From: Salinivibrio kushneri
GTDB lineage: Bacteria > Pseudomonadota > Gammaproteobacteria > Enterobacterales > Vibrionaceae
Direction: 5' to 3'
NCBI RefSeq assembly: GCF_005280275.1
Contig: NZ_CP040022.1
Location: 434,001-498,000, forward strand
Length of the DNA stretch: 64,000 nucleotides
Shown: one piece after another, positions 15,609 to 19,293 of the stretch
Numbering within the stretch: position 1 is the stretch's first letter
Layout: each line of letters opens with the position of its first letter
Notes under the pieces: model-generated
What the model was told of the DNA's origin: nothing
What the model saw: only the letters and a program-made list of their open reading frames with translations
Database searches by the model: none
Position numbers and translations under genes: made by a program

Positions 15609-16646
15609 TTATCCCACAAGCAGGCCCAACGAACGCTTAACGTTCTGGCATGTTTGGTTTGTCTGTATACTCGCCTTTTGTTGCCCATCTTTTAGGACAT
15701 CCAGCAAGTGATCAGGGGCGTTCATCAATGCTTTTCGCCGTTCTCGAATGGGTGATATCAGGGAGACTAAGCTATCGGTCAGCACGTTTTTCACTGTCAT
15801 ATCCCCCAGACCTCCGCGCTGATAATGTGCTTTGAGTTCGGCGACGTGTTGAGCGTCAGGGTGGAAAGCATCCAAGTAGGTAAAAACGACATTGCCTTCG
15901 ACTCGACCGGGATCTGAGACGCGTAGGTGTTGAGGGTCCGTGTACATGGATCGTACCGCGTCACGTATGGTGTCATTGTCATCGCTAAGATAGATGGCGT
16001 TACCCAAAGAATTTGACATCTTGCTTTTGCCATCAACACCCGGCAAGCGCGAGGCTTTGCTGGTGAGTGCGCGACATTCGCGTAATACAGGCTCGCCGAC
16101 AACGTGATTAAATTTGCGCACAATATCGTTTGTTTGCTCGATCATAGGAAGTTGATCATCGCCTACAGGCACGAGGTTAGCGCCAAATGCGGTGATGTCG
16201 GCAGCTTGACTGATTGGGTAGGTTAAAAAACCGACGGGTACTTGCTGTCCAAACTGTTTGTCGTTGATTTCGTGTTTTACCGTGGGGTTGCGGACCAGCC
16301 GCGTGTAACTGACTAAATTACTATAAAACATGGTGAGTTCTGCGAGCGCAGGAAGTTGGGACTGCTGACAAATTGTGACCTTGTCAGGGTCAAGCCCAAC
16401 CGCGAGATAGTCTGCGACCAAGCCTAAAATATGCGTTGCGACGTGACCTGGTTGATGGCCATTGTCGGTTAACCCCTGCATATCTGCGACTAGAATGGTT
16501 TGAGCACACTGTCCTTGTAAGGCAAGTCGCTGGCTGAGTGAGCCACTGTAATGACCAAGATGTAAGCGCCCTGTGGCGCGATCGCCGGTCAGAATAACGT
16601 CGTTTTTGTCGATAGAGCTTTTGTCGATAGAGTAGGGGGTGTGCAT
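15609..16646 (-). CDS. trpS2: Tryptophanyl-tRNA synthetase, second type
   Basis: A 345-residue class Ic aminoacyl-tRNA synthetase that charges tRNA-Trp. The ATP-binding HIGH-type motif is HLGHYSGSL near residue 27, and the KMSKS-type motif is KMSNS in GVDGKSKMSNSLGN. FLTYPISQAADI and LVPVGDDQLPMIE are TrpRS substrate-site segments. The sequence is clearly unlike the enterobacterial housekeeping TrpRS and matches the divergent second type. AAGGAGAC precedes the ATG. Upstream is a short leader ORF with tandem Trp codons and alternative hairpins, so expression should rise when charged tRNA-Trp falls. A divergent second TrpRS can confer resistance to TrpRS inhibitors such as indolmycin; whether this one does is inference. 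The housekeeping trpS is not in the window. Confidence 0.93.
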   Translation of the reverse strand: MHTPYSIDKSSIDKNDVILTGDRATGRLHLGHYSGSLSQRLALQGQCAQTILVADMQGLTDNGHQPGHVATHILGLVADYLAVGLDPDKVTICQQSQLPALAELTMFYSNLVSYTRLVRNPTVKHEINDKQFGQQVPVGFLTYPISQAADITAFGANLVPVGDDQLPMIEQTNDIVRKFNHVVGEPVLRECRALTSKASRLPGVDGKSKMSNSLGNAIYLSDDNDTIRDAVRSMYTDPQHLRVSDPGRVEGNVVFTYLDAFHPDAQHVAELKAHYQRGGLGDMTVKNVLTDSLVSLISPIRERRKALMNAPDHLLDVLKDGQQKASIQTNQTCQNVKRSLGLLVG

Positions 16647-16689
16647 TGGTGTCTCCTTGAGGATAAAAGCCGACGGAGACAGGGAAGTT

Positions 16690-16728
16690 GAAAACGATTC
16701 ATTGACTGCCTACCGGCGGCCAATGAAT
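16690..16728 (-). terminator. Attenuator terminator (3:4 hairpin) of trpS2
   Basis: On the minus strand, ATTCATTG pairs perfectly with CAATGAAT across a 16-base middle that holds a further GCC/GGC pairing, followed immediately by CGTTTTC as the U run. It lies between the leader peptide stop and the trpS2 start, about 44 bases before the start codon. The U run is short (four), so read-through may be substantial. Confidence 0.75.
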
Positions 16729-16761
16729 ACCCAGACTCAATGGCACGCTAAAGCGCGCGCC
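16716..16761 (-). promoter_or_regulatory. Alternative leader hairpins (1:2 protector and 2:3 antiterminator)
   Basis: Segment 1, directly after the Trp codons (GCGCGC part of 16753-16761), pairs with segment 2 (GCGTGC, 16743-16748) around a TTTA loop. Segment 2 extended (GCGTGCCA, 16741-16748) can instead pair with segment 3 (TGGCCGC, 16716-16722), giving seven pairs with one bulged U, which removes the left flank of the terminator stem. A ribosome stalled on the Trp codons covers segment 1 and frees segment 2 (antitermination). A ribosome at the stop codon covers segment 2 and lets the terminator form. A further ACCCAG/CTGGGT pairing (16766-16771 with 16729-16734) can close the leader. Confidence 0.7.
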
Positions 16762-16813
16762 ACCACTGGGTGCGAAAAATCAATAGAGTTTGTGTAGCAG
16801 ATACCGTTTTCAT
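16748..16813 (-). CDS. trpL-like: trpS2 leader peptide with tandem Trp codons
   Basis: A 21-residue ORF starting MKTVSATQTL and ending RTQWWRAL. Both tryptophans are consecutive TGG codons at 16760-16765, four codons before the stop. An in-frame TAA lies three codons before the ATG, so this is the only start of the frame. The ribosome site is weak, which is common in leaders. A possible promoter lies just upstream on the minus strand (TTGTGT, 17 bases, TAGCTT). Trp is normally about one residue in a hundred, so two adjacent Trp codons in a 21-codon ORF directly before a TrpRS gene, with matching hairpins, is hard to ascribe to chance. Confidence 0.8.
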   Translation of the reverse strand: MKTVSATQTLLIFRTQWWRAL

Positions 16814-16931
16814 AGTGGTTTAAGCTATCAGTCTTATGAGTACGACACAAGCCTCACACCCTGACGATTTTGTTGGTTTATCCGTGGGTTAAAAAGCCGT
16901 AAGGTAAAGCAAAGTCATTGAAATCGAGGGA

Positions 16932-17666
16932 ATGATGAAACTAAACGCAGACATGGGTGAAAGCTTTGGTGCGTGGACAATGGGAATGGATAGCACGCTA
17001 ATGCCGTGGATTGATATGGCTAATATTGCGTGTGGTTTTCATGCCTCTGATCCTGATGTGATGGCGGCCACGGTGGCACTCGCAGTACAGCACAATGTGA
17101 GTATTGGTGCTCATCCCGGCTACGCCGATAAGCAGGGCTTTGGCCGTCGTCATATTGATCATACCCCAGCACAAATTAGTCACCTCGTTCGCTATCAAAT
17201 CGGCGCATTACAAGGGATCTGTGCACACTTTAATGCGAGCCTTGATTATGTGAAGCCCCATGGTGCGCTGTATAACACCATGATGGTGGACAATGATTGC
17301 TTTGAAGCGGTGTTGGCTGCGGTGGCTGATACGCTGCCCAATACACCATTAATGGTACTGGCACTGCCTGATAACCGTCCGCATCGCCAGCTTGCCCAAC
17401 AAGCCGGTGTACCGCTGATTTTTGAGGCCTTTGCCGATAGAGCCTATCTGGCGTCAGGACAATTGGCGCCGCGCAGTCGACCGGGCGCTGTGTTAGATGA
17501 CGCCAACGCGATGATTGCCCAAGTGTTGCAGTTATCTCAGCATGGCTCGGTGACAACCCTTGAGGGACAAACGCTCTCGCTTGCGCCGGATACGGTGTGT
17601 GTGCATGGCGATAACCCACAATCGGTCGAGGCGATAAAACAACTCAGAAAGGCCTTAACACCATGA
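16932..17666 (+). CDS. pxpA: 5-oxoprolinase subunit A
   Basis: A 244-residue LamB/YcsF family protein, catalytic partner of the ATP-dependent 5-oxoprolinase that opens 5-oxoproline (pyroglutamate) to glutamate. The family signature is MKLNADMGESFGAWTMG, followed by NIACGFHASDPDVM and IGAHPGYADKQGFGRR, then YVKPHGALYNTM. The length is standard. GAGGGA precedes a double ATG; either could start. Its stop overlaps the pxpB start by four bases (ATGA), so the two are translationally coupled. It is transcribed divergently from trpS2 and its leader. Confidence 0.95.
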   Translation: MMKLNADMGESFGAWTMGMDSTLMPWIDMANIACGFHASDPDVMAATVALAVQHNVSIGAHPGYADKQGFGRRHIDHTPAQISHLVRYQIGALQGICAHFNASLDYVKPHGALYNTMMVDNDCFEAVLAAVADTLPNTPLMVLALPDNRPHRQLAQQAGVPLIFEAFADRAYLASGQLAPRSRPGAVLDDANAMIAQVLQLSQHGSVTTLEGQTLSLAPDTVCVHGDNPQSVEAIKQLRKALTP

Positions 17667-18358
17667 CACTCAGGGTTGAGCAGGTCAGTGAAACCACGGT
17701 AATGATCCGGTTGGGCAATAAGATCGATCTTGCCTTAGTCCCACAGTTATCTGCGCTATGTGAGCGAATCCAGCAACATTTTGGTCGTGGTGTGGTTGAG
17801 TTAATTCCCGCCTACACCAGCGTTCTGGTGGAAGTGAATGTTCGCTTACTCTCACCAGAAGGATTGAAAACGTGGGTGATGAATCAAGGCGACTCACTGC
17901 GAGTCACCCGTGACTCAGGGAGCGGAAAACAGGTGACGTTGCCGGTGTATTATCACCCCTCGGTTGGGCCCGATCTGGCTGCGGTCGCCGAGTTTGCTGG
18001 CGTGAGTGAGCAAGAGGTGATTGCGCGACACAGTCAACATACTTACACCGTTTGTGCGATTGGTTTCGCGCCCGGCTTTGCCTTTCTTGCGTCGGTGGAT
18101 GAGACGATAGCTATGCCCCGTCATACCACGCCTCGTCATCAGATCCCTGCCGGCAGTGTGGGCATTGCACAACAGCAAACCGCGGTGTATCCGGCAGCGT
18201 CACCCGCAGGCTGGCAAATTATTGGTAACTGCCCCAAGGAGCTATTCAATCCCCGTCAATCGCCCATGATGCCGTTTGATGTAGGTGATACCGTCCGTTT
18301 TGAGCCGATGTCAGAGTCTGATTACCGCGCGGCAGGAGGTCAATGGTGGCAGGATTAA
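17663..18358 (+). CDS. pxpB: 5-oxoprolinase subunit B
   Basis: A 231-residue KipI/AHS1-family protein (carboxyltransferase domain, subdomains C and D). AIGFAPGFAFLASVDETIAMPRHTTPRHQIPAGSVGIAQQQTAVYP contains the typical GFxPGFxYL and RxxPRxxVPAGSVGIA motifs. With PxpA and PxpC it forms the ATP-using 5-oxoproline hydrolase. Homologues also act as inhibitors of sporulation kinase in Bacillus, which does not apply here. It overlaps pxpA by four bases and pxpC by 16 bases, a tight operon. Confidence 0.95.
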   Translation: MTLRVEQVSETTVMIRLGNKIDLALVPQLSALCERIQQHFGRGVVELIPAYTSVLVEVNVRLLSPEGLKTWVMNQGDSLRVTRDSGSGKQVTLPVYYHPSVGPDLAAVAEFAGVSEQEVIARHSQHTYTVCAIGFAPGFAFLASVDETIAMPRHTTPRHQIPAGSVGIAQQQTAVYPAASPAGWQIIGNCPKELFNPRQSPMMPFDVGDTVRFEPMSESDYRAAGGQWWQD

Positions 18359-19293
18359 CGGTGCTTGATCCCGGCGTATTGAGTTTGGTGCAAGACACAG
18401 GGCGCTATGGGGTGGGCCAGCTTGGCTTAAGCCAAGGCGGGCCGGTCGATTGCCACGCATTTGCTTGGGCGAATTATTTACTCGATAACCCCGCAAAGAC
18501 GCCGCTGGTCGAGATAACCATGGGCCAAGCACGTTTTCGTGCTGAGCAAGCTATTTCGATCGCTATTACCGGCGCAGACATGCAACCTTGTATTAATGGT
18601 CAGCGCGTGGGTATGTGGCAGACCTTGACGCTAAATGCGGGAGATGAATTGCGTTTACGCTACGCGCGCCGTGGCTTGCGGGCCTATCTCGCGGTGCGTG
18701 GCGGGTGGACGGTCGATGGCGCATTTGGCAGTGCGGCGACGGTGATGCGCAATCAACTCGGCGGCCTGCATTCCGGATTAGGTGAACAGGCGGGAGGCAT
18801 GGCGCTCACCAAAGGAGATGTATTGCCTTACCGACCGCATGCGCTGTTGCCGAGGGGGCGCGGTGTACCGACACGTTTTATTCCTGACTACAATGCCCTG
18901 ACTCCACTGGCGCTTGTGCCGGGGTATCAGTTTGATAGCTTCAGCGCCGAGGCGCTAACGGCATTTTTTGATGGCGAATACACGGTCGATCAGCGCAGTG
19001 ATCGTATGGGCGTGCGGCTCAATGGACCGAGCGTCGTGAGCAAGCAACCGGGTATTGTCTCCGAAGGCATTGCGCTCGGGGCCGTGCAAGTGCCCCCTGA
19101 CGGTCAGCCGATTGTATTACTCAACGATCGGCAAACACTCGGTGGTTATCCTAAGCTTGGCTGTTTAACTCGTGCCAGCTTGAGCATGTTGGCGCAAACG
19201 CGACCCGGTCAGGCCGTGCGTTTTTATCCGGCGAGGCTGGCGGATGCATCGGCGCAATGGCAAGCGTTTGTGCAGTTTTTTGACTGGGTCTAG
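18343..19293 (+). CDS. pxpC: 5-oxoprolinase subunit C
   Basis: A 316-residue KipA/AHS2-family protein (biotin-dependent carboxyltransferase fold). Family landmarks are LDPGVLSLVQDTGRYGVGQLGLSQGGPVDCHAFAWAN, LRAYLAVRGG, the SDRMGVRLNGP motif and SEGIALGAVQVPPDGQPIVLLNDRQTLGGYPKLG. It completes the pxpABC operon, which detoxifies spontaneously formed 5-oxoproline. CAGGAGGT precedes the ATG inside the pxpB end. A hairpin follows before the convergent yejM gene. Confidence 0.95.
   Translation: MVAGLTVLDPGVLSLVQDTGRYGVGQLGLSQGGPVDCHAFAWANYLLDNPAKTPLVEITMGQARFRAEQAISIAITGADMQPCINGQRVGMWQTLTLNAGDELRLRYARRGLRAYLAVRGGWTVDGAFGSAATVMRNQLGGLHSGLGEQAGGMALTKGDVLPYRPHALLPRGRGVPTRFIPDYNALTPLALVPGYQFDSFSAEALTAFFDGEYTVDQRSDRMGVRLNGPSVVSKQPGIVSEGIALGAVQVPPDGQPIVLLNDRQTLGGYPKLGCLTRASLSMLAQTRPGQAVRFYPARLADASAQWQAFVQFFDWV

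Follow-up and report, generated by a model that had tools for sequence, protein, structure and literature searches.

A probable ribosome-mediated Trp attenuator with a conserved fifth RNA segment ahead of the auxiliary tryptophanyl-tRNA synthetase gene trpS2 of Salinivibrio and its relatives

The trpS2 locus of Salinivibrio

The stretch of DNA analysed here (referred to as the window, 64,000 nt in full) belongs to the second of 2 contigs of a Salinivibrio genome, and its nearest relatives are Salinivibrio records. A reading made from the sequence alone had named a Trp attenuator in front of a second-type tryptophanyl-tRNA synthetase (TrpRS) gene, trpS2, and all the pieces that it named were recovered at that place on the minus strand by inspection of the sequence and by folding. 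The features are as follows.

16845..16850 (-): -35 element TTGTGT of the predicted leader promoter, read in the sequence, with a 17-nt spacer to the -10 element
16822..16830 (-): extended -10 element TGATAGCTT, ending 8 nt upstream of the leader ATG
16748..16813 (-): leader peptide ORF of 21 codons, MKTVSATQTLLIFRTQWWRAL and stop, from the ORF reading
16760..16765 (-): tandem Trp codons TGG TGG, three codons ahead of the leader stop
16755..16771 (-): segment 1, 5' arm of 1:2, from the fold (core helix 96.1% paired, n = 51 sequences)
16735..16748 (-): segment 2, 3' arm of 1:2 and 5' arm of 2:3, from the fold (2:3 88.1% paired, n = 51)
16715..16728 (-): segment 3, from the fold, able to pair with segment 2, 4 or 5
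16697..16710 (-): segment 4, 3' arm of 3:4, from the fold (3:4 79.1% paired, n = 51)
16690..16696 (-): weak U-tract CGTTTTC, 3' of 3:4, read in the sequence
16668..16682 (-): segment 5, CTGTCTCCGTCGGCT, pairing with 16721-16706 or in part with the Shine-Dalgarno sequence (SD), from fold and covariation
16650..16656 (-): segment 6, GGAGACA, containing the trpS2 SD, complement of TGTCTCC at 16681-16675
15609..16646 (-): trpS2, TrpRS-II-type tryptophanyl-tRNA synthetase of 345 aa, from sequence comparison and structure search

The leader peptide (ATG 16813-16811, TAG 16750-16748, minus strand) ends in QWWRAL directly before its stop; its 21 codons and adjacent Trp codons are as first described, the pair lying three codons ahead of the stop. 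Folding confirmed that hairpin 1:2 (16771-16755 with 16748-16729) overlaps the leader stop, and the alternative 2:3 antiterminator turned out to be longer than had been claimed, with 12 pairs between GCG-GCCA-TGAGT (16748-16735) and ATTCA-TGGCCGC (16728-16716). Hairpin 3:4 (16728-16715 with 16710-16697) is strong, at -17.7 kcal/mol with a z-score of -4.35; the U run with which it was said to end is only CGTTTTC, with 4 T in 8 nt. The partner of segment 5, 16721-16706, consists of the end of segment 3, the apex, and the start of segment 4, and this helix folds at -21.8 kcal/mol (z -4.06). The whole leader folds at -52 kcal/mol (z -5.44) with 0 of 200 shuffles as good, while the stretch 16717-16759, which includes part of segment 1, gives a z-score of only -1.61. 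Upstream, the 118 nt of 16814-16931 are common to the trpS2 leader promoter and to a divergent plus-strand run of three ORFs (16932-19293), which look like the 5-oxoprolinase subunits pxpABC.

The enzyme encoded by trpS2

A search of solved structures revealed chains 1yi8 and 2a4m as the best matches of the trpS2 product (E about 5e-105), the latter Tryptophanyl-tRNA synthetase II by name and both presumably the Deinococcus radiodurans enzyme; 8i1w, which we take to be E. coli TrpRS, matched with an E-value of 3.1e-28. The product is nearest to TrpRS II rather than to the housekeeping bacterial TrpRS, and shares 28% identity with the other TrpRS of its genome. A DxQ sequence is present in 68 of 68 gammaproteobacterial trpS2 rows (some of them from the same genome), the other TrpRS of the genome having DLH. 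Gln occupies the same position in 22 of 22 rows from alphaproteobacterial, betaproteobacterial, Deinococcus, and other loci, in one Acinetobacter row, and in 67 of 68 rows from Firmicutes, Bacteroidota, and Coriobacteriia (the remaining one having a gap), and the low-identity relatives from the class, which have no leader, carry His there in 10 of 14 cases. We assume this to be the position of Bacillus stearothermophilus His43, which is linked with indolmycin sensitivity.

The H43N substitution in Bacillus TrpRS is reported to confer indolmycin resistance (PMC4899734), and from Salmonella transposon data other authors suggest that trpS2 may substitute for trpS (PMC3487940). On these two grounds, the Gln-for-His position and the Salmonella suggestion, trpS2 is likely to be a backup synthetase, and the emergency role that the sequence-only reading had assigned to it is plausible. 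A role with NO synthase has also been reported for TrpRS II (PMC9437257).

Distribution of trpS2 and conservation of the leader

Within the genus, 4 of 8 genomes have trpS2; at family level (Vibrionaceae) the count is 142 of 329, and samples of the order and the class gave 66 of 394 and 16 of 369, respectively. Under a stricter limit, the gene was found in 17 of 299 genomes from the phylum. Conservation of the tandem Trp codons among orthologues, which had been named as expected support for attenuation, was borne out. Of the 195 distinct trpS2 upstream sequences in the order group, 186 have a leader with adjacent Trp codons (WW leader; the script allowed up to 6 codons between WW and the stop, and 2-4 were observed), where shuffles would yield 0.66 and the reverse strand yields 0, the count leaving out sequences with less than 200 nt upstream or with long N runs (L003 was kept). 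Among the nine misses, L145, L164, and L268 do have a WW leader, with 8-9 codons after WW, L113 has a single Trp codon, the contig of L124 ends a short way upstream, and one is an Acinetobacter locus that the group takes in. Single-Trp-codon leaders lie upstream of trpS2 in both L113 and L308, and their downstream hairpins are alike by eye. The Acinetobacter trpS gene L289 (2998-4011) encodes the same protein type, and the 420 nt inspected ahead of it are free of WW codons. Partial trpS2 matches still lie behind WW leaders at G102:C131:68704-69429 (L248), G169:C74:176038-176523 (L250), and G209:C2:41616-42257 (L249); genomes G209 and G250 have two trpS2 matches each.

Beyond the order group, a WW leader was found in 15 of 21 distinct upstream sequences of other groups, a count made without the one E. 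coli plasmid locus (itself a match) that this second group of 22 held. These leaders include records of Rhizobium, Methylocystis, Agrobacterium, Roseibium, Bosea, Variovorax, Burkholderia, and Deinococcus; in a second Rhizobium record the WW leader is absent upstream of trpS2. None was found in 66 upstream sequences of trpS2 relatives from Firmicutes, Bacteroidota, and Coriobacteriia, nor in those of 14 low-identity relatives from the class and 5 from the order. A WW leader is also present at a Salmonella trpS2 locus.

A covariance model of the leader found a single strong place in its own genome, the trpS2 leader (9.6e-18), and 28 other genomes of 295 gave a match at 1e-4 or better, in every case immediately upstream of trpS2, the model having been built partly from those same sequences, that of the Salinivibrio window included. 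Four further matches were weak (25.9-28.6 bits), and leaders of the f25 type were not found by this model.

A promoter abutting the leader start codon

In 205 leaders, the commonest triplet at -35 to -33 of the leader AUG is TTG (frequencies 0.76, 0.70, and 0.58), and the commonest sequence at about -15 to -7 is TGnTAnnTT; in the Salinivibrio window the same elements sit two bases further up. The promoter score of 60 representatives is highest at 6, 7, and 8 nt upstream of the leader ATG (z 7.2, 9.3, and 4.8), and the best promoter site of the nearest 60 lies 4-11 nt before the AUG in 38 of them, compared with 8 by chance. SD-like letters precede the leader AUG in 4 of these 60 and the trpS2 AUG in 54. 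From the position of the promoter and the scarcity of SD-like letters before the leader AUG, the RNA is predicted to start at or within a few nt of this AUG, and hence to be leaderless. At Rfam Trp_leader loci an SD-like 4-mer was found in 10 of 29, which makes them a poor SD control, and the mean promoter score there has no single peak at 6-8 nt.

Stall-dependent pairing and covariation

The trpS2 start was located in 199 of the 205 leaders, and 189 leaders were folded as RNA emerging past a ribosome. Helix 1:2 of at least 5 pairs formed in 187 of these 189, and helix 2:3 of at least 5 pairs in 185 with the ribosome at WW versus 43 with the ribosome at the stop, so that folding around a ribosome, a check proposed along with the original claim, favoured it. 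Segment blocks were matched in 138 of the 199 leaders, and L286, L269, and L180 were left out before clustering to 51 sequences; the enteric row L288 was kept among the alignment rows, its block 5 being probably misplaced. For 1:2, 2:3, 3:4, and (3-4'):5, none of 500 shuffles reached the percentage paired or the covariation score observed over these 51 sequences, as would be expected of compensatory changes in segments 1-4. When a protein tree of 54 rows was taken into account, each single pair had the backing of 1-3 independent row pairs, and none reached significance. Taken together, the conservation of the leader, the modelled stall-dependent 2:3 pairing, and the covariation strongly support Trp attenuation of trpS2.

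A conserved fifth segment

Without a structure being given, RNAalifold predicts 1:2 together with a long helix in which segment 3, the apex, and the start of segment 4 pair with a stretch shortly upstream of the SD, referred to here as segment 5. This (3-4'):5 helix is 92.5% paired, and 9 of its 13 pairs are changed on both sides, with 60 cells versus 21.7 in shuffles (n = 51). In a complementarity test of segment 5 and the SD that took in 185 leaders, (3-4'):5 lay below 5% of shuffles in 119 of 122 Vibrio-type, 17 of 17 other gammaproteobacterial, 16 of 19 f25, 9 of 11 alphaproteobacterial, 3 of 3 betaproteobacterial, and 1 of 1 Deinococcus leaders; the figure is 0 of 3 for f25 representatives, and only 3 of 12 for Enterobacteriaceae-type leaders, where the test window cut the apex. 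A cruder automatic test, which used 192 of 199 trpS2 leaders, found segment 5 in 98 of the 192, or in 38 of 58 when representatives are counted. The same test found it in none of 30 Rfam Trp_leader loci of the family, these being the locus of the same genome and 29 among the matches listed, assigned by their Rfam match alone. Three Trp_leader loci that were inspected have textbook tails such as GCGGGCTTTTTT.

Segment 5 as a terminator marker (3:5 followed by T) was considered and dropped, the alignment having no consistent U-tract after segment 5; the uncontrolled T count in the 8 nt after block 5 is mostly 3-6.

Pairing with the Shine-Dalgarno sequence

A portion of segment 5 can alternatively pair with the trpS2 SD, through 7 complementary positions in the Salinivibrio window. 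This 5:6 helix was 54.9% paired at the first count and 88.5% at a slide of -2 (n = 51), a register chosen after that count and a figure favoured by the choice; in the chosen register the percentage paired and the covariation score exceed all 500 shuffles, and pairs changed on both sides are no more frequent than in shuffles (2 versus 2.1). One segment-5 base covaries with both of its partners, being Watson-Crick in 124 of 138 leaders with the apex and in 108 of 138 with the SD side, compared with 82 and 76 in shuffles.

Based on this pairing, the leader might act mainly on translation, with 1:2, 3:4, and 5:6 hiding the SD, 2:3 and 4':5 freeing it, and little or no termination taking place, which would be a narrower form of the explanation preferred below and which we regard as a serious contender, at a little under an even chance. 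For 5:6, 100 of 122 Vibrio-type and 10 of 17 other gammaproteobacterial leaders have a complementarity below 5% of shuffles. The latter group has few U-tracts (2 of 17), and in 11 of its 11 representatives SD accessibility lies under the mean of the shuffles. In full-length folds the minimum contains 3:4 in 124 of 138 and 5:6 in 121 of 138, the two occurring together, and (3-4'):5 lies a median of 4.35 kcal/mol above it. When 2:3 is kept and the SD is yet to be made, segment 5 pairs with the apex or segment 4 in 130 of 134 models. These results favour a mainly translational switch. Against it, in the prefix with the ribosome at the stop segment 5 pairs with segment 3 or the apex (above 0.5) in 122 of 134 models and 3:4 survives in only 6 of 134. 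The 5:6 complementarity is moreover rare in the remaining groups (4 of 11 alphaproteobacterial, 2 of 19 f25, 2 of 12 Enterobacteriaceae-type, 0 of 3 betaproteobacterial, and 0 of 1 Deinococcus leaders).

Equilibrium folding likewise weighs against a mainly translational output, SD accessibility under ribosome masks being about equal in the on and off states, with a mean of 0.19 stalled versus 0.15 at the stop in 198 leaders, and 0.15 in both states in 189 leaders when 2:3 is kept. With 2:3 kept, 5:6 beats 4':5 by 4.1 kcal/mol on average. The folding energies thus give no clear on/off difference for the SD with and without a stall, and the model does not separate the two states because segment 5 pairs with segment 3 or the apex in either of them. 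Compared with shuffles, accessibility is modestly lower in the Vibrio type (0.16 versus 0.26) and higher in the Salinivibrio window (0.39 versus 0.28) and in the alphaproteobacterial, betaproteobacterial, and Deinococcus leaders (0.32 versus 0.27). A kinetic effect on SD exposure is possible, and the output of the trpS2 leader may be partly translational; that the attenuator hands its signal on to translation we propose tentatively, as somewhat short of probable.

Hairpin 3:4 as a terminator

A terminator scan that asks for 5 T in 8 nt did not report 3:4 in the window, the tail of which has 4. Hairpin 3:4 is followed by a tail with at least 4 T in its first 8 nt in 62 of 123 Vibrio-type, 2 of 17 other gammaproteobacterial, and 6 of 15 alphaproteobacterial, betaproteobacterial, or Deinococcus leaders, in all 4 Salinivibrio sequences, and in 9 of 12 Enterobacteriaceae-type and 15 of 19 f25 leaders; L301 and L311 have terminator-like tails. 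These counts replaced an earlier terminator search over the whole leader, which took the 3:5 hairpin in several loci. As a terminator, 3:4 is therefore weak or doubtful on these counts, and the read-out of the switch may differ between lineages.

The tails in Salinivibrio, the Enterobacteriaceae type, f25, L301, and L311, together with the strength of 3:4 itself, are what a simple transcription attenuator of four segments, like that of the trp operon, would show, with 3:4 as its terminator and segment 5 and the SD hairpin idle. This second narrower form of the preferred explanation has difficulty with the strong covariation of (3-4'):5, its complementarity in most groups, and the occurrence of segment 5 at trpS2 leaders compared with none of the Trp_leader loci, and we consider it a substantial if somewhat doubtful possibility. 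The classical mechanism put forward in the sequence-only reading holds as ribosome-mediated Trp control; its purely four-segment design, with an intrinsic 3:4 terminator, is not supported, because U-tracts are weak or missing in many orthologues and a fifth segment is conserved.

Proposed control of trpS2

We conclude that a ribosome-mediated attenuator reading Trp codons very probably sets the level of the auxiliary synthetase trpS2. Briefly, transcription would start at or beside the leader AUG, as the promoter position suggests. When Trp-tRNA is sufficient, the ribosome would get to the stop, with segment 2 covered or back in 1:2, so that 3:4 could form and expression would stay low, presumably through weak termination at 3:4. 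When Trp-tRNA is scarce, through Trp starvation or inhibition of the main TrpRS, a ribosome stalled at WW would cover segment 1, allowing 2:3 to form in place of 3:4. In Vibrio- and Shewanella-type leaders the SD hairpin 5:6 may add a translational block, which pairing of segment 5 with the 3/4 apex would lift. In its widest form this would be a leaderless six-segment Trp attenuator in which stalling is relayed via segment 5 to the SD, which controls both a weak terminator and the translation start across Pseudomonadota, on chromosomes and plasmids, and which switches on a TrpRS that inhibitors of the main enzyme do not affect; for this complete scheme we claim possibility, slightly less than evenly weighted.

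Relation to known systems

The trpS2 leader resembles the trp operon leader (trpL; RF00513) in its short ORF, whose tandem Trp codons lie a few codons upstream of the stop, and in its 1:2, 2:3, and 3:4 alternatives; it differs in the weak U-tract, the extra segment 5, and the promoter abutting the AUG. RF00513 did not match at the trpS2 leader at the gathering score, at a relaxed threshold, or in a search of its own genome at E 0.001. In that genome it matched another place at 46.6 bits and a second at 32.7 bits, below the cut-off. The Trp_leader locus of the same genome (L303, G000:C1:1115891-1115985), whose peptide is MNSVALIWWHGSSRAV before the stop, has the textbook terminator tail GCGGGCGTTTTTG.

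Attenuators of trpS are known from Streptomyces, namely of S. avermitilis trpS2 (PMC1262725) and of S. lividans, whose trpL2 (PMC8079986) lies before trpS; for the latter the peptide MMTRTCTQLWRAA ending at a stop, a leaderless transcript, and two hairpins without a uridine-enriched stretch are described (PMC8079986). As far as these descriptions go, they share with the present system a Trp leader peptide ahead of a trpS gene, and differ in belonging to another phylum, in having one Trp codon in S. lividans, and in that the consulted part of its description does not mention a fifth segment or SD pairing. By description there is also a likeness to the trpS mRNA of Caulobacter crescentus, for which a small putative leader CDS was found by ribosome profiling (PMC4117421). 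TrpRS II (2a4m and 1yi8) provides the closest solved relatives of the protein, and a Deinococcus plasmid relative (L301) also has a WW leader. In the limited library searched, no attenuator was met for a gammaproteobacterial trpS2, in agreement with the earlier judgement that it is little described there, nor any that has a fifth segment. For trpS, Trp attenuation is already known from Streptomyces, and what is new here, as far as the literature was searched, is the gammaproteobacterial trpS2 and the conserved fifth segment.

A leader peptide or short terminated RNA acting in trans, like peTrpL/rnTrpL of Sinorhizobium meliloti, with trpS2 control as a secondary matter, has a precedent in a leaderless trpL small ORF with trans roles (PMC7298713), and is very improbable here, where the peptide N-termini vary and it is the WW-to-stop distance and the RNA helices that are kept. 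To a T-box or other ligand-binding leader upstream of trpS2 we give practically no credence: some lactobacillar TrpS2 relatives do have T-boxes directly upstream, but no Rfam family matched in the window at the gathering score, nothing relevant lay near the leader at the relaxed threshold, and RF00230 (T-box) went unmatched at the leader at both.

T-boxes before trpS2 of the lactobacillus type lie at L064 2707-2912, above the Rfam cut-off, and, below it, at L004 2749-2926, L007 2787-2957, and L008 2765-2929. Rfam found no T-box in L015 and L023; L006 and L009 were scanned at the gathering score only. A T-box motif pattern search in L004-L071 found nothing, although Rfam later showed T-boxes there. 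Given the T-boxes before this enzyme class in lactobacilli, it appears that one spare enzyme has been put behind unrelated sensors of tRNA charging.

Implications and occurrence on plasmids

The attenuator of trpS2 looks like a general emergency control. Control of the spare enzyme by a sensor of charged tRNA would suit a reserve that is induced when the main synthetase fails. It could also account for the retention of trpS2 as an accessory gene by many Vibrionaceae and by some plasmids of Klebsiella and E. coli. Natural TrpRS inhibitors would be linked to a backup TrpS2 in a way that can be tested, and the conserved fifth segment raises the question of whether a ribosome-mediated attenuator can pass its signal to a translation start.

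On Klebsiella and E. coli plasmids trpS2 and its WW leader were found together (L292 3547-6017 and L287 6010-7017). In L292 trpS2 adjoins a tryptophan permease gene (mtr) between IS1 copies, and L287 lies near IS26 and IS1; given these IS1 and IS26 surroundings, the unit of trpS2 and WW leader seems to be mobile. On an E. coli plasmid from river water (L293 2565-3987), the neighbours of trpS2 and its WW leader are a predicted match to a fosfomycin thiol transferase (74.65% identity) and a transposase gene of IS3000.
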